Below are positions 14,174-62,640 of a stretch of 64,000 nt of DNA, one piece after another. The stretch is taken from NCBI GenBank assembly GCA_033558025.1, contig JAUCEF010000014.1, positions 3,782,001-3,846,000 on the forward strand, read 5' to 3'. The notes under the pieces were generated by a model. That model was not told the DNA's origin. It did not search any database and saw nothing but the letters and a program-made list of their open reading frames with translations. The stretch comes from Phytophthora sp. 'mugwort'. Lineage: Eukaryota; Oomycota; Peronosporomycetes; Peronosporales; Peronosporaceae. Positions within the stretch are counted from its first letter, which is position 1. Every line of letters starts with the position of its first letter. The position numbers and the translations under genes are program-made.

Positions 14174-14597
14174 CTCTGGATTTTTTCAAGTTGTTAAGGC
14201 GATACGAGTACCAGTACTAATCACTATAGAAACGAATAGCTTGTATATATTTATGCTTTTTCGCTACCTGTTTGCTCCAAAACGTCCTTATATTACCTTT
14301 ATGATTTGGTACCTGTATAGATTTCGTACTATCCATAGCGAATGTTGCTTGAGTCTTTTACGGTTGACCGTTTTACGTTGACCGTTTTACAGTTGACCGT
14401 AAAAGACTCAAGCAACATTCGCTATGGATAGTACGAAATCTATACAGGTACCAAATCATAAAGGTAATATAAGGACGTTTTGGAGCAAACAGGTAGCGAA
14501 AAAGCATAAATATATACAAGCTATTCGTTTCTATAGTGATTAGTACTGGTACTCGTATCGCCCTAACAACTTGGACAACTCTGGATAAAATCCAGAG
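14174..14597. repeat. Long near-perfect hairpin (fold-back element)
   Basis: Left arm 14174-14364 and right arm 14396-14597 are reverse complements over about 190 bases. The differences I saw are one base (T versus C at 14563 by the pairing) and a 13-base insert in the outer part of the right arm, GACAACTCTGGAT or its shifted equivalent. The 31-base loop and inner arm ends carry three copies of a TTGACCGT-containing motif. The arms hold no coding sequence. The structure resembles a fold-back/MITE-type element or a recent inverted duplication of one end. I see no clear target-site duplication. Transcription through it would give a strong stem-loop RNA. Confidence 0.92.
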
Positions 14598-36245: not shown

Positions 36246-39065
36246 ATGTCGCTCTACATACAACCTTCAAGTGTTTGCACTACCAAAGCTTGCACTCACA
36301 CCTGTCAGACCATGTTCCTCGAGCTATCCTATGGATCGCGGACTGGTGACAAAGAGGTGTCTACGTCCAAGGCTGCGAGTAGCTGGCGGTACGATCACGA
36401 GAGTAAGAAGGAGATGTCGCTTGATGAACTCATCTCCGACTTCCAGCAAAGTGCCCCAAGTCCTCGATCCAGCTTGAATCACAGCGAGTCAGACTCTGAT
36501 ACTTCACCAGTACCAGTAGCATCCCCTCCGAGGCGTCTAAGAGCGGGCAGACAACAATGGGGCTTCGCTGATCATCCACGCGCAGTGAAACCAGCGTTCG
36601 TGAAGAGAAAACCGGTCAGATCGAGCGTCAAGAACGTGCAGCGAGACGACTCAAGTGAAGACGAAGGCGCAGTGTCACCCATGCCTCGGCTCGAACAGGT
36701 TCTCAGAAACAAGTCGTCATTTATGACTAAACTCCGTCCTGTTCTTCGTGCTCCTGCAACTACTAGATCGAAGTCAAGTCCGACACTTCGACGCAGGCCT
36801 CAAGTCAAGTCGCCAGTACCGTCGTCACCATCGCTTACTCCACCTTCGTTGTCTCCAGTCACGTCTTCATCGGCCGCATCTTCCCCATTACCCGTGTCAG
36901 AGGACAATCACATGTCTGTCATACCGGACGAGGACTCCATCGACGCGTTGATCGGGAAGGAGATCCGCGATCTCAACAAATTGATCTCGACTGGTAGCCA
37001 AGCTGGGAAAAGGACGAACGATGTTGCTAGATCACGACCCTTGGACGAGATATCGAACGTGGTCCGTCAGAGCACGCGCTATGGGAGGACAGGATCAAAG
37101 AATCCTCACTCGTCACTTCGACTTGATATCCCAAGTAGGAAATCCAGCTCTAAAGCGCCGGAGTCGCCTCCACCGCCGCCACCTCCAGAGGACGACGATA
37201 ACTATGAAGATTCGTTCGACGAGGAGATTCGAAACTTGAGAGAGAGCCATCGTCATAACTCGATATCCACTACAGCATTAGAAAAAGTGTCTACGGAAGT
37301 AGAAGAGACAACCGAAAGCTCCGAGATTTGTGCCTTGACAGCCTTGAAAGTCCGCAATGCGTCGAATGCCATCAGCCAATTACTCCTAGAAGCGCTGAAG
37401 CCGTTTGAGGACCGAGAGCAAGAAGAAGAACAAGCCAAAGCTTTCGAAAAGGAGAATGATGGAAGTGATGCGGTGATCCGTGACGCCGCGAACGCAGAGC
37501 TGCAATTGGCCACCCAAACGATCGTGTCCCGACTAAACATGGCATTTGCAGAGATGACGGAGCGTCGGAAAGCCGACTTGAAAGCCGAAGCCGACGTCGC
37601 TTCTGCCGCCAAAGTAGCAGAGAAGAAGGAGAAGGAAGCTGCTGAGGAGAAGAAGAAGACGGAGGAAAAAGAGACCAAGGAACGCGAAATGGAGATACTG
37701 AGGTTACTCCCCATGCAGGGGAAACTGCTCACGTGCTCAGCTGACATTGAGAATGTACTCGAGCAACTCGAAAGTACAGACAACTCAGCGCTGAGTAAAT
37801 TAATGGAAAGTGAATCCTCAATAGATGCCGAGATCCGGATACTACGAAGTCACACGCAGCACAAAATCCAAGAGATTGAAGCGCGGATGGCCGCAGCACC
37901 GAAGAAGGAGCAAAACAACCGAAGCGACGACATTTCTTGGCGAGCGGTTGACTGGGCTCAGGACAACTTTAAAGTGGATCGTCTAATTCCAATAGAACAA
38001 AGCAGCAATCCGAAACCTGGAGATCTAGAGAATTCACCCTTAGAAGTTGCGCTAGCAGAGGATGAAACGTCTTTCGAGGAAGTTCTGCAGCGGCAAGTTT
38101 TGGAGAAGTTGGACCTTACGATACTCAACCTTAGACATGTCCTTGCTATTGATACCAAAGAAGCTGCCGAGGCGAAGGAAGCACAAGAGCGAGAAAGACG
38201 AGAGCAAGAGAGAAAGCGAGAAAAGCAGCAGCTGGAAGACGAGCAGAAGCAGCGGGAACGAGAAGATGCCGAGAGTGCGAGACGACGAGTCATGGGCTTA
38301 ACGTCCATTGATGAGATAGAAGGGTGGATTACTGAAGGACAGCAGCTGCAGAACGAACTCGGCCACGACCGATCTTTGGACCGTTTAATGGCATCAATAA
38401 AGACTCGCATGGGATGGGAGACTAGAAAGAGACCTCCCTCGATCTACTGCAGTAACAACGCGCCATCGTACCAAAATGAGGTGATGGACTCGTTTGATCG
38501 CTTAGCTAGTGAACTAGAAACTCAAGAAACTCGAGAAGATTTGGATGACGAAGAGGTCCACGAACGCCGCTATCATGAGCATAAGAAATGCTACTCAAAT
38601 AGGCCCGTACGGCGCCACAATGAGGCCACGAGAGCGAAAGAACGAAATAATCCACGATGGATCGAAGTTACGAGCTGCTCTAGCGACAGTGAAGTTGAGG
38701 CTGGTAGTGTAGGTGGTGACTCAGAGAGGGACGAAAGTCCACCTTCAGGCTGCCAGCAACGATCCAATTGTGTTGATCATGACAGGAGGCGCTCTCGGCC
38801 ATCGCCACTTCCATCGCGATCGCGTTATGAACTATCGACCCCCCACGTGAGGCAGAGAAGGAGGCCTCAATACGAGAAAGAATCTAACATAAGCAAATAT
38901 CGTGATGGACGGAATTTGTCGAGAAGAAGTACAAAAGGAACTAGTGGGCTCCAGCAAGAAGTTGCCCGAACAATTCAAGCGCTGCAGACGGAGAGACGAC
39001 AGAAAGCTACATGGATCCGAAGTCGCCTTTGCAGTCCATCGTCTGGACGGCGTCCCGCTTACTAA
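36246..39065 (+). CDS. Unknown coiled-coil protein, 939 residues
   Basis: I do not recognise a family. The protein has a Ser/Pro/Arg-rich disordered first third, a proline run (PPPPPPPE) near residue 308, an acidic patch EDDDNYEDSFDEEIRNL just after, and two strongly charged coiled-coil regions at about residues 450-490 and 636-682 made of Glu, Lys, Arg and Gln. Between them lies WRAVDWAQDNFKVDR, perhaps a small conserved domain. The C-terminal 250 residues are rich in Arg and Ser, and the final RLCSPSSGRRPAY is basic. The ATG at 36246 is first in frame; ATGs at 36312 and 36414 are plausible alternatives. Coding bias over the whole length and lack of stops support a real gene. A cytoskeletal or scaffold role would be a guess. 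Confidence 0.65.
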   Translation: MSLYIQPSSVCTTKACTHTCQTMFLELSYGSRTGDKEVSTSKAASSWRYDHESKKEMSLDELISDFQQSAPSPRSSLNHSESDSDTSPVPVASPPRRLRAGRQQWGFADHPRAVKPAFVKRKPVRSSVKNVQRDDSSEDEGAVSPMPRLEQVLRNKSSFMTKLRPVLRAPATTRSKSSPTLRRRPQVKSPVPSSPSLTPPSLSPVTSSSAASSPLPVSEDNHMSVIPDEDSIDALIGKEIRDLNKLISTGSQAGKRTNDVARSRPLDEISNVVRQSTRYGRTGSKNPHSSLRLDIPSRKSSSKAPESPPPPPPPEDDDNYEDSFDEEIRNLRESHRHNSISTTALEKVSTEVEETTESSEICALTALKVRNASNAISQLLLEALKPFEDREQEEEQAKAFEKENDGSDAVIRDAANAELQLATQTIVSRLNMAFAEMTERRKADLKAEADVASAAKVAEKKEKEAAEEKKKTEEKETKEREMEILRLLPMQGKLLTCSADIENVLEQLESTDNSALSKLMESESSIDAEIRILRSHTQHKIQEIEARMAAAPKKEQNNRSDDISWRAVDWAQDNFKVDRLIPIEQSSNPKPGDLENSPLEVALAEDETSFEEVLQRQVLEKLDLTILNLRHVLAIDTKEAAEAKEAQERERREQERKREKQQLEDEQKQREREDAESARRRVMGLTSIDEIEGWITEGQQLQNELGHDRSLDRLMASIKTRMGWETRKRPPSIYCSNNAPSYQNEVMDSFDRLASELETQETREDLDDEEVHERRYHEHKKCYSNRPVRRHNEATRAKERNNPRWIEVTSCSSDSEVEAGSVGGDSERDESPPSGCQQRSNCVDHDRRRSRPSPLPSRSRYELSTPHVRQRRRPQYEKESNISKYRDGRNLSRRSTKGTSGLQQEVARTIQALQTERRQKATWIRSRLCSPSSGRRPAY

Positions 39066-39424
39066 CCACATCTATATCTTGTCGTGTACACTAGTGAACG
39101 CTGCACTAGTGCGAATGGATTGACAGAACCTTTGTTGAGCTACTGTATTGAGTCACGTGAGGGACAATCTGTCCGGTTTCTTGTGTGTCTTGTGAACGTC
39201 GAGAATGTTTTCCATCACTTGTACCGCATGCATCTCTCCCAGGCTCAACGAAACAATCTTAGAGTTGCACTTGGAACGTCTTGTGAAAGTGACGCGGAAT
39301 GCGCGGATCTATGCACCACATAATGCCGTTAGGTAGGTAGGTGCCCAACTAGAAACTTGCGAAGCACGAACAAAAGTTGGTGTTGCAGTTTGACATTAAC
39401 TATTTCAGTTTATTTTTTCTGCCA
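39066..39424. other. Spacer between coiled-coil gene and palindrome
   Basis: No gene recognised. Short open frames have no motifs. Confidence 0.4.
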
Positions 39425-39668
39425 AGGTTTTCAATTATATATTGCGTTCATGTTTGATCCATGTTAAGTAAACAGGAAAGGGTCATGCAATATCGACTTG
39501 AAAGAAACAATTAATAAAAATGGGATATTGTTCATGCCGCGCGATTTAAAATGCGTGACCTTTTGTGAGGAAAGTCGATGCTCAACAATAAAGGAGTACT
39601 CACGTAGACGACGGTGTATCACTGTGTGGCAAGAATATTGAGCAGCTTGAATTCATCCACTTATCTGT

Positions 39669-40514
39669 CTACGCGATGAAGGACTCGTATTTGGCCGGGT
39701 TCCAGTCCGGGAAGAACTTGGCGACACTCTCTTGCACCTCCTGCTCCGTGCCAGCCACGCCACGGCCCTCCTCGAAAAGAGTCGTGAGGAACGCCACGAA
39801 GTCCGTGTTGAAGTTCTTCTTGTTCTCCTCAAAGTCGATGTGGCGCACCTCGATCTTCTTGTTCAGCTTCTTCTCGGCGAGGTCGTGGATCTGCAGCGGC
39901 GACAGGCGCTCGGCCTCGAACGGGATTTTGGCTCCCTCCAGCGCGGACTTGGGAGCCGTGGACAGCACGTGTGCCACGAAGCGGCCGATATCATGGCGCG
40001 ACGTGATGCTGAAGGCCGTCTCGCCCTTGCCCACCACGTTCATGTAGCCCTCGTCGTAGTGGTAGCCGAGGAAGTAGGGCAAGAATTCGGCGAACAGGCC
40101 CGTGTAAAAGATGGTGAAGGGGATCTGGTGCTGCGTCAGCAGGTCCTGCACCTCCTTCTTGGTAACGTTCGGGCCCTCCGTCACCTTGACGCCATACTCG
40201 GCCGGCACGAAGAGCTGGATGCCCGCCGCCTTGGCCGCAGGCACGATGGCCTTCTGCACGGTCATGTTGTAGGGCGACACTGTGCTGACGGCCACTTCGC
40301 TGCCGCTGAGCGCCTTCTTCACGGCGTCCTCGTCGTCGTACGAGACCTGGTGTAGCGTGGCGCCCCTCGCCTTAAATGCCTGCAGCTCCGGCTTGGACTC
40401 GTCACGGGTGAGGATGGCGACGGACACGGCTTCGCCCTTCTTGAGCAGCTCGTCCACGACGGTGCCGCCGACGCCGCCGGCTCCAATGATAGCGAACTTG
40501 GTGTATGTAGACAT
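39669..40514 (-). CDS. NmrA-like NAD(P)-binding oxidoreductase, left copy
   Basis: 281 residues. The N-terminal Rossmann motif IIGAGGVGGTVVDELLKKG (residues 9-27) binds NAD(P). VSTVSPYN and FVPAEYGVKVTEGP follow, as in the NmrA-like/isoflavone-reductase-like atypical short-chain dehydrogenase family. IPFTIFYTGLFAEFLPYFLG aligns with the substrate-pocket region, and TSRHDIGRFVAHVL matches the conserved Asp-Ile-Gly segment of the family. Members are either NADPH-dependent reductases or redox-sensing regulators; the substrate is unknown. Codon usage is highly biased to G/C-ending codons, which suggests strong expression. Protein and gene are identical to the copy at 41473-42318, transcribed outward in the opposite direction. 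Confidence 0.88.
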   Translation of the reverse strand: MSTYTKFAIIGAGGVGGTVVDELLKKGEAVSVAILTRDESKPELQAFKARGATLHQVSYDDEDAVKKALSGSEVAVSTVSPYNMTVQKAIVPAAKAAGIQLFVPAEYGVKVTEGPNVTKKEVQDLLTQHQIPFTIFYTGLFAEFLPYFLGYHYDEGYMNVVGKGETAFSITSRHDIGRFVAHVLSTAPKSALEGAKIPFEAERLSPLQIHDLAEKKLNKKIEVRHIDFEENKKNFNTDFVAFLTTLFEEGRGVAGTEQEVQESVAKFFPDWNPAKYESFIA

Positions 40515-41472
40515 GATTGTGGGGGGTTGTGTGGTCTGAGGAGGTTGCCGGGGACTTGTGTCGTGTTAAGGCTTTTGAGTTGTGAGCTCAGCGTACGGAG
40601 AGATAGATGTATTTGCCGGGGGGCCATGGTCTCAAGAGGATGATGGCGGTTACAGGAGCTATCGTTCTCGTTCAAGCCGCTGACGTACTTAAGTATGGAT
40701 TGGTGCGAGCGAGTACCATAACGAAGCCGTACCATAACGAAGCTGCCCGAATCTAGGAGTTGCGAGTAAGCACTGAAAATAGTCGTTGGTGCAGCGACGG
40801 GACGTCGATTAGTACGCGAATACCATGCACAAGCCATAGCGCTGCTTCAACATCCATACATAATACAGATCACCGCGCATATTAGCATTGACGGGTTGTT
40901 CGCACTGCCCGATGCAGTGCGATCACACGATGGATACACGTACTATGCTGCAAATAGTAATACATATAGTAGCACTGGGTTTTAATGAGCGAATCGGCAG
41001 TCGGCGCACGAGGCGTATCAACATTAATCCGCTGACAAGACACAACCACAGGTTCCGAAACAAGCGATGGATCGAGCAGGTTAGGCAACAACCCGTCAAT
41101 GCTAATATGCGCGGTGATCTGTATTATGTATGGATGTTGAAGCAGCGCTATGGCTTGTGCATGGTATTCGCGTACTAATCGACGTCCCGTCGCTGCACCA
41201 ACGACTATTTTCAGTGCTTACTCGCAACTCCTAGATTCGGGCAGCTTCGTTATGGTACGGCTTCGTTATGGTACTCGCTCGCACCAATCCATACTTAAGT
41301 ACGTCAGCGGCTTGAACGAGAACGATAGCTCCTGTAACCGCCATCATCCTCTTGAGACCATGGCCCCCCGGCAAATACATCTATCTCTCCGTACGCTGAG
41401 CTCACAACTCAAAAGCCTTAACACGACACAAGTCCCCGGCAACCTCCTCAGACCACACAACCCCCCACAATC
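40515..41472. promoter_or_regulatory. Mirrored divergent promoter region of the two NmrA-like genes
   Basis: 958 bases separate the two ATGs. Each gene has its own identical 386-base upstream region inside the palindrome arm, and both share the 186-base unique centre. A near-duplicated motif GCTTCGTTATGGTAC / CCGTACCATAACGAAG repeats just inside each arm (40717-40742 and 41245-41270). A C-rich CCCCCCACAATC leader precedes each start codon. Any enhancer in the centre would act on both copies. Confidence 0.6.
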
Positions 41473-42318
41473 ATGTCTACATACACCAAGTTCGCTATCA
41501 TTGGAGCCGGCGGCGTCGGCGGCACCGTCGTGGACGAGCTGCTCAAGAAGGGCGAAGCCGTGTCCGTCGCCATCCTCACCCGTGACGAGTCCAAGCCGGA
41601 GCTGCAGGCATTTAAGGCGAGGGGCGCCACGCTACACCAGGTCTCGTACGACGACGAGGACGCCGTGAAGAAGGCGCTCAGCGGCAGCGAAGTGGCCGTC
41701 AGCACAGTGTCGCCCTACAACATGACCGTGCAGAAGGCCATCGTGCCTGCGGCCAAGGCGGCGGGCATCCAGCTCTTCGTGCCGGCCGAGTATGGCGTCA
41801 AGGTGACGGAGGGCCCGAACGTTACCAAGAAGGAGGTGCAGGACCTGCTGACGCAGCACCAGATCCCCTTCACCATCTTTTACACGGGCCTGTTCGCCGA
41901 ATTCTTGCCCTACTTCCTCGGCTACCACTACGACGAGGGCTACATGAACGTGGTGGGCAAGGGCGAGACGGCCTTCAGCATCACGTCGCGCCATGATATC
42001 GGCCGCTTCGTGGCACACGTGCTGTCCACGGCTCCCAAGTCCGCGCTGGAGGGAGCCAAAATCCCGTTCGAGGCCGAGCGCCTGTCGCCGCTGCAGATCC
42101 ACGACCTCGCCGAGAAGAAGCTGAACAAGAAGATCGAGGTGCGCCACATCGACTTTGAGGAGAACAAGAAGAACTTCAACACGGACTTCGTGGCGTTCCT
42201 CACGACTCTTTTCGAGGAGGGCCGTGGCGTGGCTGGCACGGAGCAGGAGGTGCAAGAGAGTGTCGCCAAGTTCTTCCCGGACTGGAACCCGGCCAAATAC
42301 GAGTCCTTCATCGCGTAG
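41473..42318 (+). CDS. NmrA-like NAD(P)-binding oxidoreductase, right copy
   Basis: Identical in sequence to the gene at 39669-40514, including all synonymous sites as far as I can read, so the two genes make one and the same 281-residue protein. The same Rossmann and NmrA-type motifs apply. The stop codon is followed by 126 bases of mirrored 3' flank before the arm ends. Dosage gain is the simplest functional meaning. Complete identity of the coding sequence together with diverged outer flanks points to recent duplication or continuing conversion. Confidence 0.88.
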   Translation: MSTYTKFAIIGAGGVGGTVVDELLKKGEAVSVAILTRDESKPELQAFKARGATLHQVSYDDEDAVKKALSGSEVAVSTVSPYNMTVQKAIVPAAKAAGIQLFVPAEYGVKVTEGPNVTKKEVQDLLTQHQIPFTIFYTGLFAEFLPYFLGYHYDEGYMNVVGKGETAFSITSRHDIGRFVAHVLSTAPKSALEGAKIPFEAERLSPLQIHDLAEKKLNKKIEVRHIDFEENKKNFNTDFVAFLTTLFEEGRGVAGTEQEVQESVAKFFPDWNPAKYESFIA

Positions 42319-42589
42319 ACAGATAAGTGGATGAATCCAAGCTGCTCAATATTCTTGCCACACAGTGATACACCGTCGTCTACGTGAGTACTCCTTTATT
42401 GTTGAGCATCGACTTTCCTCACAAAAGGTCACGCATTTTAAATCTGAACAATAGCCAATTTTTATTAATTGGTTACGGAAGAAATAGTTACTGTCAATTC
42501 GATATATTGCACGACCCTTCCCTGTTGGATCAAGCATGAACGGAATATACAATTGAAATGGTTTGAAAACTCGGCAAAAAATATTTTGT

Positions 42590-43000
42590 AATATTTTTTT
42601 ATCATAACTGCGATACCAAATTTTTCCGCATCTAAACAAATCTAAACTCGCATTAAAATACTCCTTTGTATCGTTGCTATCCTTGATGTATTCGGAACGG
42701 GTCTTACCCCCGCCAGTGCGAAAGATCTTCCTTAAGTACATGCACTGCAAAATTTATTTGAAAGATCCACCAATTCGGCAGATGCATTTTACTTCAGTGG
42801 GTCTCTAAGTTTGAGATCATCCAAACGCAAATATTAACACTGCGAGCGACTACTGCGCGCCAAAATCGGTTTTTGAAGTAATGCTGGATAAACAGAGACG
42901 TATGCGCTAATACAGAAGCGTTGTCCCTATTCAGTTTTACACCATTAATAACTCATGGTTCGCAATTCAATTAAATTATTTTGAAAAGAGCTTGTTGAAG
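42590..43000 (+). pseudogene. Unidentified decayed coding stretch, module copy 1
   Basis: The plus strand resembles 61555-61960 in the second module. Shared pieces include AAATTTATTTGAAAGATCCAC against AAATGTACTTGAAAGATCCAC (KIYLKDPP versus KMYLKDPH) and CTAATACAGAAGCGT. Stops occur throughout copy 1. I do not know the protein. It always sits just upstream of the effector pseudogene. Confidence 0.4.
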
Positions 43001-43059
43001 TTTTGTTCCCGCTAAATGCGAAGTCTCATCATATTTTCGGAAAACAAGCAAGGTATGCA

Positions 43060-43075
43060 GCTCAATCCCCATTTT
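43060..43075 (+). promoter_or_regulatory. Oomycete Inr/FPR-like core promoter, effector copy 1
   Basis: GCTCAATCCCCATTTT matches the oomycete core consensus of the form GCTCATTYYNCAWTTT with one or two differences, 38 bases before the effector ATG. It is followed by CATCCAACACAAGTCCCGTG, also seen after the promoter in copy 2. Confidence 0.65.
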
Positions 43076-43112
43076 CCTCCATCCAACACAAGTCCCGTGA
43101 AGTACCAACACC

Positions 43113-43646
43113 ATGCGTGTGTTACCTTCTGCTACTCGGTGCTGCCACCATTCTCGATGGCATCAGTGACGTCTCGGCAGCCACATGCTTGGCCCATATT
43201 CATCTGTCGAAGGCGACCTCGGACAAGATCACTCATTCCGTCGGAGCTGTCCACCAACCAGCCAACGGAATTTAAAAAAAGCTCAAGACAGACGATTCTG
43301 ATGACGTGGAAGGTGAAGAGAGGAGTAACGAAAGACTTGTTGCCGCGCTAGAAGGCTGCTACCGACTTTCCGGAGTGTAAGCAAAATGGACTTTGACGAT
43401 GCTTGGCACCGCCTACAAATGCATTCGCATCTGAAGTGGCAGCAGAGGGAAGTTGTCTTGGCATTGCATAAGCTTTCGCCGCAGGAGCACAAGGCTGTCC
43501 TGTTAACCGCAGCGGGCAATACTTCTGACTGTTGTCGTAAGAGAATTCCTGTCTTAGAAACAATAATAAAAGCAAGCCTCAGCGATTCACGACGAGTTGA
43601 TATACTCAATGATCTCGTTAGACTTAAAAACAAACTGCGAGGTTAA
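43113..43646 (+). pseudogene. RXLR-like effector pseudogene, copy 1
   Basis: The ATG at 43113 is followed within about ten bases by a 2-base loss relative to the expected frame, so the hydrophobic signal-peptide-like segment (YLLLLGAATI) lies in another frame. In that frame a stop at 43273-43275 falls where an RXLR motif would be expected, and an acidic VEGEERSNE segment follows, resembling the dEER part. A further 1-base shift near 43350 puts the C-terminal block (from MDFDDAWHRL at 43386 to the stop at 43644) in a third frame. That block contains ALHKLSPQEHKAVLL, shared with copy 2. RXLR effectors are secreted by oomycetes and act in host cells; this copy cannot make the full protein. The last block is open by itself and has its own ATG. 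Confidence 0.7.
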
Positions 43647-43650
43647 GCAG

Positions 43651-44022
43651 CACAATTTCTGGTAGAAACGTCGATATGTTTTTGTTTAATATGCGGGTGA
43701 GTACGGTAATGGGCGGTGCATGATGGTTTTAGATAGAAGAGATATTCGTTTACGAGGCTGTTGAGTTGCTCCCAGTTGTGCTTATTCTTATTCTCACAGA
43801 AATAGACCTGTAATCAGTACTTGAACCATCCAGTTAATGGGCCGTCGAAAAAAATAGAGATTCTTCTTGGTTTTTCCTTGCCTTCTTGTCCCATGTTATC
43901 CGCCTCTATTTGTTCAAGCATTTTGCTCGCATCTTCGTACTAGTATTATCGCGCTTGTACATTAAATGCTCATTCTTCAATTCACGCGGTAGTCGTCGCC
44001 AGCAAACGAACTCGTGGCCCAG
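43651..44022. other. Intergenic, upstream of membrane protein gene
   Basis: 372 bases with no coding sequence recognised. Holds the promoter of the gene starting at 44023. Confidence 0.4.
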
Positions 44023-46962
44023 ATGAAGAGGGGCAGCAGTCCTAACGTTGACGTAAAACCGACAACAATCCAGGAACCACCAAAACAAGAAATATCTTCC
44101 AAGCCGACGGTTAAAACAGAGACACCCCCTCGTGTCCAGCAACCACTCTTCCATGACTATGACATCTCGTACAAATCGTGCGCGGCCGTCTTCATGCTGG
44201 TCTTTCTTGGCGTCAGCTTTATTCCTTTCAAGGAGTATTATCTCGGCAGCTACGTCACCAAGCCATTCGACGAAATTAGAGATGAAGTCGCTGCTAGAAA
44301 GCTGAACCAAATGGGTGTCGTCATCAGTGGCGTGCATTATTTTGACACGTTCGAGCGCTCGCAGATCCCGCTCATTGATTTGACCACCAAGACTGGTCTC
44401 ACTCGTTCGACTGCTGCCACCTTGTCACTCACGGAATTCCTCGTTCGTGCAAATATTCGCCGACGTGATCTCCTCGCTGTACTACCCGAAGCAATCTTAT
44501 CGCAACCAGTGGATCTCATGGTAGACGGATTGGCGCCACTGTGTGGCCCAGTGACATCGTGGGAGACCCAACCGCAGTTTTTGTTTGGTAATTGGTTTCC
44601 GGCGATTCATCATGAATTCTGCCGGGATTTCCACGACAATTTCCCGCTCGATCGTTTCTTCAACTACCGTGGCAAGGCGCCTCTCGATGCCAACTTGTCG
44701 TCTATTGGCGATGTCACACTGGGTCTCATTGCTGTTGTCAATATGTCGGAGGTGTATTTACGCCACTTTAACGACGCACTTGTCGTCCGTAAGGTCATGA
44801 AGAACGTGCAAGAAGGTTACATGGATTTAGATCTGCCAGACTACACGAATACAGTGGCTGAAGCTATCGTAGATCGTTATAGTAAAGGCATTTCGCTCGC
44901 CAACGTCATTGAATTACTACCGGGATCGTTCGACATGGAACATGTGGCGTTGGTAGATGTGCTCGGTGTTCAAGCTCTTCTAGCTCATTATCTCGATACC
45001 CAGCAACTGACGATGGGGGTAAACGTGAACGGCGAGGCCGCGATTTTGGCTGAGGTGAACCATGCCACAGTTTCCTTCTTTACGTCAGACTTCTTGATCA
45101 ATACCGTCGGGATGCATTTGGTATCGACGATGCACTTGGCACCATTCTGGAACTGTGCGATCAAACACACATCGATGGACAAGGCAATTACCATCGATGA
45201 TGTGGATGGAGCAGCGATTAAGCAATGTGGACGTGATTTGTCGGTCATCATCCCCACGTTTGCAGTTAATCTGATGTTTCTGTTTCAGAAGGACGATCGA
45301 GACTACTCGAAACTGGATAATACGACTACATACACACTCGGACACCGACGAGAGACTGCAGCGGAGTATGTAGCAATGGATATCCCAGAAACACTCCCAC
45401 ATGCTCCACTGCTGGCAATCGATGGCTCTGCTTGGACAAAGGATCGCACTTCGACCCCCTCGCAGCCACCGCTCACTCCTTACGGGTACCTTTACACACC
45501 GGATTGCCGGGGCATCGTCGACTCTGTGATGCAGCAGAGCGGTCGCAATGTACAGAAATATCAAGCTTACATGGGAGATGGACTTGGTAAGTGTGCTTTC
45601 CGAGACTCACAGGAGACTGAGCTGCAAATCCTCTGTCGATTATTCATGACGTCCAACGAGGTTCAATTCCGAGCTCTTAACGGTAGTCTCATTGAACTTC
45701 CAGCATGTGCAGCCCTAGCGACACCTGGCGGTACCCCCGAGCTTCAACTTGTTGAGCAAGAAAACTTGCGCCAGATCGAATGGTTCATGATTGATACTAC
45801 AATGGTCAATCGCCGTATCCGAATCCAAGACAATACAAGTCGGCAGATTCGAACATTTCTGTTGATTCTCAACTTGATCGGCGCTTCTTATTATGCTCTC
45901 GAGTATCTTTTCATCTTAAAAAGCGTCTGGATTTTCATCCGCAACAGCGTGTATCGACCTGCCGCAGAAGTGCAATCGCGTTTTGGAACGGTGGATTCGT
46001 TCGCTCGTAACGCGCCGCCGCTTGTTCGGATCGGATTATTCGAACTATTGCAGTGCGATCCAGCGGACGGCGCTCTGGAACATCCTGGTACGATGGTACT
46101 GCTCTATCTCGGTGCCATTGGAGCTCTAAGCAATATCTTCTCACTCGGTTGTACTGCTCAGCTTTCAACTGCTGAGGGGAGTATCGTTATCTACTGCACG
46201 CCAGCGATCCCCATTCAAAGTCTTACGCTCGTGTTCACGACACTAAGCAGCAGCTATTGGGTCATTCGGATCACTCTACAAACGCGGTCGCTAGCAATGC
46301 GTCTGGATCATGCTGCACGCAGTGATTTTGCTCGATTCTGGGCACTGAATGCTGTGGCAGTCCTGGTTATCCACTTCAGCTGCAAGGTTGGGGCGGATTT
46401 GCTGCTCCGCAATGCCGAATTATACTCAGATCCGCACCTGTACGCAATCTTTGGCGGACTGGCAGTGGCACTAATCATCTCGTTGGGATTTATATTGCTT
46501 CACATCGCATCAACGGATTCTTCCAGGCTGCGTAGTCTTTTGCGTCAACGATCCTCCAGAACCGTGTGGCGTGAAGCCTCGTCAAGAGAGCAAAGTGACC
46601 GAGCTTTCGTTACAAAGTGGAGTACGCGTGGCCTCGACTCTGTCTTGTACCACTGTGCTACTCCTCAAATCGCGCGACAACTTGAGCTTTTCAGCACACG
46701 ACAACAAGAAGAAGGGAGCAATGTCCCGAGGAAATCCAAGAAATTTGCTGTCGACAGCGGCAAGCAGCCTACCGGCATTAACATGCATCAGTTCGTAACG
46801 GTTCATTGTGCTGCTGGATCACATGCCCACCTGAAAACAGTTAAGTGGTATCTAGACGAGAATGGAGCTGGTGGCGTCATGAGCGTGAGTCCAGTATCAA
46901 AGACGACGCGAGTGGTGTGCGCGTCTAGTAGCGCTACGGGCAAAGATGGAGCGCCACAATGA
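44023..46962 (+). CDS. Large multi-pass membrane protein, unknown family
   Basis: 979 residues from the ATG at 44023; the frame is open to a GTG nine bases earlier. A polar N-terminus of about 50 residues precedes a first membrane segment (CAAVFMLVFLGVSFIPF, about residues 53-70). A long hydrophilic region of about 530 residues follows, probably on the other side of the membrane. Then come five to six hydrophobic segments near residues 607-640, 689-710, 726-750, 772-790 and 805-825, including LLYLGAIGALSNIFSLG and VALIISLGFILLHIA. The tail is polar. I do not recognise the family; the layout is like other oomycete-specific surface or secretory-pathway proteins of unknown role. Length and clean coding bias support a real gene. 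Confidence 0.72.
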   Translation: MKRGSSPNVDVKPTTIQEPPKQEISSKPTVKTETPPRVQQPLFHDYDISYKSCAAVFMLVFLGVSFIPFKEYYLGSYVTKPFDEIRDEVAARKLNQMGVVISGVHYFDTFERSQIPLIDLTTKTGLTRSTAATLSLTEFLVRANIRRRDLLAVLPEAILSQPVDLMVDGLAPLCGPVTSWETQPQFLFGNWFPAIHHEFCRDFHDNFPLDRFFNYRGKAPLDANLSSIGDVTLGLIAVVNMSEVYLRHFNDALVVRKVMKNVQEGYMDLDLPDYTNTVAEAIVDRYSKGISLANVIELLPGSFDMEHVALVDVLGVQALLAHYLDTQQLTMGVNVNGEAAILAEVNHATVSFFTSDFLINTVGMHLVSTMHLAPFWNCAIKHTSMDKAITIDDVDGAAIKQCGRDLSVIIPTFAVNLMFLFQKDDRDYSKLDNTTTYTLGHRRETAAEYVAMDIPETLPHAPLLAIDGSAWTKDRTSTPSQPPLTPYGYLYTPDCRGIVDSVMQQSGRNVQKYQAYMGDGLGKCAFRDSQETELQILCRLFMTSNEVQFRALNGSLIELPACAALATPGGTPELQLVEQENLRQIEWFMIDTTMVNRRIRIQDNTSRQIRTFLLILNLIGASYYALEYLFILKSVWIFIRNSVYRPAAEVQSRFGTVDSFARNAPPLVRIGLFELLQCDPADGALEHPGTMVLLYLGAIGALSNIFSLGCTAQLSTAEGSIVIYCTPAIPIQSLTLVFTTLSSSYWVIRITLQTRSLAMRLDHAARSDFARFWALNAVAVLVIHFSCKVGADLLLRNAELYSDPHLYAIFGGLAVALIISLGFILLHIASTDSSRLRSLLRQRSSRTVWREASSREQSDRAFVTKWSTRGLDSVLYHCATPQIARQLELFSTRQQEEGSNVPRKSKKFAVDSGKQPTGINMHQFVTVHCAAGSHAHLKTVKWYLDENGAGGVMSVSPVSKTTRVVCASSSATGKDGAPQ

Positions 46963-61955: not shown

Positions 61956-62081
61956 GTCACAGCAATAAATTATAATTTCTTACTTCGCTATGCTCCTTTT
62001 CAAAACTTGTTGAAGTTTCGTTACCTTTGATCACGAGATGCGACCCCCATCGTGTTCTCTGCAGAAGCTGCAAGGTATACT

Positions 62082-62097
62082 GCTCACTTCATATTTT
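62082..62097 (+). promoter_or_regulatory. Oomycete Inr/FPR-like core promoter, effector copy 2
   Basis: GCTCACTTCATATTTT matches the oomycete core promoter form closely, 38 bases before the ATG at 62135, followed by CATTCAACACAAGTCCCGTG. Spacing and sequence are the same as in copy 1. Confidence 0.7.
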
Positions 62098-62134
62098 CCT
62101 TCATTCAACACAAGTCCCGTGAAATAGCAACAAC

Positions 62135-62640
62135 ATGCGTGTGTGCGTGCTACCTTGTGCTACTCACCGCTGCCGCCATTATCGCCGCGACCAATGACGT
62201 CTCGGTAGCCGCGGACTTGGACCAAACGCATCTGTCGATGGTAACATCGGAGGAGATGATTCATTCCGTCGGAACTCCCAGCAAGTTCGCCAATAGATTT
62301 CTATGAAATCACAAACGGACGATTACGAAGAGGCGGAGGATGAAGACGCCGACGATGAAGACGCGGAATACGATGAGAGGAGTTTTGAAGGCCTCGCTAC
62401 CAAGCTGGAAGGACTGCTACCAACCTTTTTGAAGGTGAGCAACATGGACTTCTTACCTACTTGGCAGCACCTATAAATGCTTCCGAATATATCTTGGAAG
62501 CAGAGGGAGGCTCTCTTGGCATTGCATAAGCTTTCGCCGCAGGACCGCAAGGCTGTCCTGATGCTGATTAAGTGACCAGATGGTCCAATCTTTCTTACTA
62601 CTTCCGTAAGGGAATACTGCGAAAGATAAAGAAAGAGTAA
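62135..62640 (+). pseudogene. RXLR-like effector pseudogene, copy 2
   Basis: The ATG at 62135 is separated from its signal-peptide-like segment (CYLVLLTAAAIIAATNDVS) by a 4-base gain that changes frame after the first codons. A partial RXLR-like site is visible as Arg-Phe-Leu followed directly by a TGA stop near 62304. The acidic region (AEDEDADDEDAEYDERSFEG) then lies in a different frame, ending in a stop at 62474-62476 where copy 1 has a Gln codon. Homology to copy 1 goes on to about 62640, including ALHKLSPQDRKAVLM. Several independent lesions show long-standing loss of function. Confidence 0.72.

Follow-up and report, generated by a model that had tools for sequence, protein, structure and literature searches.

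Twin NmrA-like genes in a Phytophthora palindrome, probably homogenised by recent arm-to-arm gene conversion

Within a 64,000-nt stretch of the genome of Phytophthora sp. 'mugwort' (hereafter "the window"; contig C14), two divergently oriented genes encoding the same NmrA/isoflavone-reductase-like protein lie on the arms of a short palindrome whose homology goes on, clearly diverged, beyond both outer ends. In our judgment, the probable explanation is that an inverted duplication of some age had one arm copied over the other by gene conversion in recent times. The palindrome is a known kind of structure, familiar from gene pairs of Caenorhabditis and from the human Y chromosome, in a new group of organisms.

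The left arm (window positions 39543-40900) and the right arm (41087-42444) measure 1,358 nt each and align without gaps and with a single difference, i.e., at 99.93% identity. The differing base, A at 39650 versus G at 42337 on that strand, is located 19 nt past the stop codon. Copy 1 of the gene is an uninterrupted open reading frame (ORF) of 281 aa on the minus strand (39669-40514), and copy 2 on the plus strand (41473-42318) encodes an identical protein of 281 aa, both being transcribed outward, i.e., divergently. The 386 nt upstream of copy 1 (40515-40900) also belong to the arm and are identical to the sequence upstream of copy 2, and the 958 nt between the two ORFs consist of these 386-nt arm parts and a spacer of 186 nt (40901-41086). 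A query comprising most of the left arm together with some flank (39425-40782) found two places in the 86.26-Mb assembly, and the spacer is present at a single place in the genome. The spacer is non-palindromic, since local alignment with its own reverse complement gave nothing beyond an 8-bp stem at 40901-40921, and the homology of the arms does not reach into it on the inner side. This stem is perfect, encloses a 5-nt loop, and adjoins the left arm exactly at its inner edge, where it is possibly a scar of whatever fixed the inner limit of homology.

Outside the arms, the left outer flank (39372-39534), which is set off from its arm by an 8-nt stretch found on the left side only (39535-39542), and the right outer flank (42445-42624) align in inverted register with 128 of 151 positions identical (84.8%) and 7 indel events, and this outer homology extends over about 165-180 nt on each side. 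The local alignment score of 55.5 compares with maxima of 16.5 in 200 shuffles and of 14.5 in 200 segments drawn at random from the adjoining 200 kb on the left. Both structural claims of the initial annotation, two 1,358-nt arms with a single base difference and inverted homology continuing in diverged form outside them, are therefore borne out, and the outer homology reaches slightly past the limits first given. Differences between the two sides number 1 in 1,358 positions inside the arms and 23 in 151 outside (Fisher p 4.5e-23), and coding constraint does not account for this contrast because the non-coding arm positions alone (1 difference in 512) are still set apart from the flanks (Fisher p 8e-15).

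The same sites speak to the idea that the duplication is old throughout and that purifying selection alone preserved the arms as the flanks diverged. The protein is indeed well conserved across Phytophthora, with identities of up to 94%, but it differs by at least 6% from that of every other species found, and all synonymous sites as well as 511 of the 512 non-coding arm sites are identical between the arms, too. These silent and non-coding sites rule out purifying selection as the cause of the arm identity, and we give this scenario practically no credence. Instead, two divergence rates in one continuous homology, together with the identical silent and non-coding sites, imply that the arms were re-copied recently and in register; a single duplication alone would not readily produce two such rates.

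Oomycetes are commonly diploid and heterozygous, which lends some plausibility to an assembly artefact in the form of joined haplotypes, a fold-back read, or a repeat that was collapsed and polished. However, in a fold-back join the flanks would be mirror images at equal identity and no spacer would be present, whereas the flanks observed here are 15% diverged with indels and run into different ORFs (36246-39065 on one side and 44014-46962 on the other), and the unique spacer lies between the arms; this flank and spacer structure rules out a fold-back join. Joined haplotypes would be expected to appear as direct rather than inverted copies, and the arms are short features of a contig of 4.28 Mb, so that an artefact of any of these kinds strikes us as very improbable. 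A dispersed repeat or transposon as the source of the palindrome was ruled out by DNA searches of the assembly, which revealed no further copies of 39425-40782, of the spacer, or of the right flank (42444-42760), with the proviso that the right-flank query returned its own place only and missed even the diverged left flank, so that weak copies would escape.

A different kind of rival is a recent second inverted copying beside the old gene, e.g., through template switching in replication or break repair, with an old remnant flank that mimics conversion. Arms that are identical over their whole length save for one difference would fit such a single recent event. Nevertheless, the identical block is placed exactly in register within the older outer homology, a position that a new copy would have had to hit to the base, and a replacement in register amounts to conversion in effect. 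As the mark that separates conversion from fresh duplication, we used an unconverted homologous border beside a converted tract, and the palindrome has such a border, with 84.8% identity next to 99.93%. We therefore regard a second copying as unlikely, though less so than an artefact of the assembly.

According to the preferred reading of an old duplication followed by arm-to-arm conversion, an inverted duplication would have created two divergent NmrA/isoflavone-reductase-like copies with shared upstream sequence, and the duplicated unit would have taken in at least about 290 nt downstream (the flank and 126 nt of the arm). Afterwards, the copies would have diverged, leaving a trace in the flanks as 15% substitutions and indels, until a recent conversion tract, or several overlapping tracts, copied one arm onto the other over 1,358 nt from the inner end of homology to 126 nt past the stop codon; one difference would have arisen since. 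Homologous recombination presumably served as the machinery. The accessible part of a previous study describes extensive mitotic recombination in P. ramorum (PMC6414701), so recombination of this type does operate in the genus. Dated against its own flanks only, the copying would have an age of roughly one hundredth that of the duplication, a crude ratio of one difference to a flank divergence of about 15% that is used as the clock.

The initial annotation had proposed that arm-to-arm conversion keeps the two copies identical and, if real, acts as a natural dosage and repair device. Conversion stands as the best reading of the two-rate homology, of a mosaic gene pair elsewhere on the contig, and of a partial mosaic in P. 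kernoviae (both described below), but continuous upkeep would be speculative, one recent whole-arm event being enough to explain the arm identity. Any benefit of this conversion, including a role in dosage or repair, would be presumptive. The coding sequence of the NmrA-like genes has a GC3 of 0.89, whereas 25 non-overlapping ORFs of at least 300 aa average 0.641 (sd 0.10) and do not exceed 0.815. GC-biased conversion is unsupported in the 3' non-coding part of the arm, which is no richer in GC (0.413) than the sequence outside (0.418 and 0.372), and codon bias is therefore an equal explanation of the high GC3.

The strongest support for conversion comes from about 221 kb to the left on the same contig, where a divergent pair of genes has Pfam matches to DIT1_PvcA and TauD (C14:3595239-3600878, i.e., L017:3239-8878; 658 and 654 aa) and is putatively isocyanide-synthase-like. 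At the 3' end of this pair, 797 of 800 positions are identical over eight consecutive 100-column blocks, while the adjoining 0.8 kb or so of the same coding sequence shows 50-67% identity per block. GC3 drops from 0.815/0.809 for the C-part to 0.744/0.681 for the N-part, and a search with one 1,653-nt arm found two places in the assembly.

We compared this pair with 18 of the 19 homologues found. The N-domains of the two copies are 55.1% alike within this genome and match P. ramorum PRNP1_013262 and PRNP1_013258 at 87.7% and 87.0%, and these two P. ramorum N-domains are 60.3% alike. The C-domains, by contrast, are 99.0% alike within this genome, 95.7% within P. ramorum, and 81.4-84.4% between the species; in this comparison with P. 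ramorum, which covered the sequences of the genes rather than their orientation, they are thus more alike within than between species. A tree of the N-domains recovered the paralogue split with a support of 100/100, whereas the C-domain tree (13 of 20 rows) joined the pair of this genome (100/100) and that of P. ramorum (99.2/100), and a C-domain tree with the paralogue split was rejected (AU p 1.0e-61, again with 13 of 20 rows). When distant rows were included, the P. ramorum pair formed no clade, as outgroups were placed, with weak support, next to one of the two sequences. N-domains that sort by paralogue and C-domains that sort by species indicate that the pair already existed when this lineage and P. 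ramorum separated and that it was converted in both, and we infer that the same process acted at the NmrA-like palindrome. In P. cactorum and P. citrophthora, the N-domain of the second copy (P0084 and P0086, respectively) belongs to the first type, so that neither can stand in for the second paralogue; among the representatives of 90% clusters, P. infestans, P. nicotianae, and P. capsici have the first type only and P. kernoviae, P. fragariae, and P. cinnamomi the second type only.

The window and the 200 kb to its left (264 kb of contig C14 in total) were compared with themselves by ORFs, a survey that may miss intron-bearing genes. With antisense ORFs inside the pairs set aside, four local pairs exceed 75% protein identity; all of them are divergent and none is tandem or convergent, the best tandem match reaching 50.5% and the best convergent one 40.9% (ORFs of at least 100 aa, at most 30 kb apart). 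Besides the two pairs described above, these are a pair with 2,708-nt arms at 99.8% identity (C14:3701362-3704069 and 3708375-3711080; L027-L028) and one of 973 nt at 97.9% (C14:3671219-3672191 and 3677058-3678030; L024-L025). The former encodes an identical serine-rich protein of 307 aa that by eye looks secreted, with other ORFs in the spacer, and the latter proteins of 281 aa in which repeated Cys/His-Gly-Gly motifs can be made out by eye. Searches with 2,069 of the 2,708 nt of one arm found two places in the assembly, and searches with 782 of the 973 nt found two places over that length plus 16 short, weaker matches of 67-84%.

Neither of these two pairs has diverged outer homology and both may be plain recent inverted duplicates, which favors the view that the NmrA-like arms, too, came from a second copying; on the other hand, the DIT1_PvcA plus TauD pair requires replacement in register. 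The conversion signature is hence found in two of the four divergent pairs, the NmrA-like one and the DIT1_PvcA plus TauD one. Tentatively, divergent inverted pairs might form a conversion substrate throughout the genus Phytophthora, with back-to-back duplicates being homogenised repeatedly, as whole genes or in one domain, and more so than tandem ones, though we would sooner doubt than assert this generalization. If it were true, the two genes of a pair would evolve in concert in one species after another. Orientation by itself is no guarantee of homogenisation, as illustrated by another divergent pair of the NmrA family on contig C10 (2519833 on the minus and 2523135 on the plus strand) that is only 71% identical over 967 nt and has tandem neighbours at 78% and 68%.

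The protein encoded by the palindrome is an NmrA/isoflavone-reductase-like atypical short-chain reductase that matches the Pfam family NmrA (PF05368) with 110.9 bits over residues 7-272, far above the curated cut-off of 27, and its six best protein matches, with a top identity of 94%, all come from Phytophthora, so that the first reading of the twin genes as NmrA-like and of the DNA as oomycete holds. Its nearest solved chains are the plant enzymes eugenol synthase 1 (E 2.6e-11) and phenylcoumaran benzylic ether reductase (E 7.1e-10), and a lysine pair, which may have a catalytic role, falls in the region aligned to these chains. Two members of this subfamily, both of them the palindrome copies, were found in the assembly, and the other seven matches to the NmrA family are distant (six on C10 and one on C11). 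An NMRA-like regulator has been reported for all Phytophthora species (PMC6493774) and a bacterial-type NmrA-like gene for Pythium (PMC5023847), in each case according to the accessible text and without implying the same subfamily.

At the protein level, 40 of 75 homologues were compared. Closely similar copies cluster with those of their own species in five cases, namely P. infestans, P. sojae, P. cinnamomi, P. ramorum, and P. cactorum. This is not general, however, because additional copies from P. nicotianae, P. megakarya, P. capsici, and P. boehmeriae, as well as one from P. cinnamomi, fall apart from the nearest copy of the same species. The species-wise grouping may reflect concerted evolution but could equally reflect separate duplications, strain variants, or differences between gene models; the P. 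cactorum pair, for instance, has the same sequence save for gaps (262/262). In P. kernoviae, the leading 73 residues of P0017 and P0039 (tags 7411/7412) match exactly and 42 of the following 176 aligned residues differ, a pattern with a chance of 9e-8 if differences were spread evenly, and these predicted gene models may thus represent a conversion-like partial mosaic. Relatives of both the NmrA-like gene and its right neighbour (44014-46962) are present in P. capsici, P. oleae, P. cinnamomi, and P. cactorum; in the two species with comparable tags, these are 19-31 apart, which means that any conservation of the neighbourhood is loose and has no bearing on the inverted pair.

The closest parallel are divergent paralogous pairs in inverted repeats of Caenorhabditis such as F44E5.4/F44E5.5, some of them partly homogenised, for which the accessible text of the report suggests gene conversion (PMC1803023). 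Like these, the palindrome combines divergent identical genes with arms that extend into the intergenic region and a short non-palindromic spacer, though at other dimensions (there 446 bp of intergenic sequence, 160-bp arms, and a 126-bp spacer; here 958 bp, 386-nt arms, and 186 nt). It differs in the genes, in its oomycete host, and in the diverged homologous outer edge that marks the tract end, and it is known from one genome, whereas the Caenorhabditis structure is conserved across species in that account. The initial annotation had likened the palindrome to those of Y chromosomes; on the human Y, arm identities above 99.9% are ascribed to gene conversion in the part of the source that we could consult (PMC3723533). 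An identity of this order is also found here and the likeness holds for the process, but not beyond it. The arms span only 1.4 kb, and the Y palindromes belong to the male-specific region. Mammalian BMP8A/B, another inverted pair, similarly has converted and diverged segments side by side, yet these genes are described as lying about 235 kb apart with GC raised in converted parts including introns, while the high GC here is confined to coding sequence and does not include the converted 3' non-coding part (PMC2720389, accessible portion). In the same genus, recombination or gene conversion has been reported among RXLR paralogues of P. ramorum; these are effector families, and the accessible text describes no inverted-pair geometry (PMC3820680).

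Among the literature matches listed, we found no description of divergent, conversion-homogenised gene pairs in oomycetes, which would now join the lineages that have them. The NmrA-like and the DIT1_PvcA plus TauD loci offer two clean cases with internal unconverted controls, so that tract ends, rate, and dependence on orientation can be measured in collections of isolates. Such pairs can also mislead copy counts, gene trees, and the dating of Phytophthora duplicates, as exemplified by the DIT1_PvcA plus TauD pair, which is older than the split from P. ramorum but has C-domains that look brand new.

The window contains two further repeats. A near-perfect fold-back palindrome of 403 nt (14179-14581; 94%) has an arm unit of about 190 nt with 76 matching rows, which correspond to some dozens of further sites spread over many contigs, and almost every site is matched on both strands. 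The palindrome thus resembles two copies of a short dispersed repeat joined in inverted orientation. A direct repeat of about 570 nt with 70% identity links 42979-43502 and 61997-62560, 18.5 kb apart.
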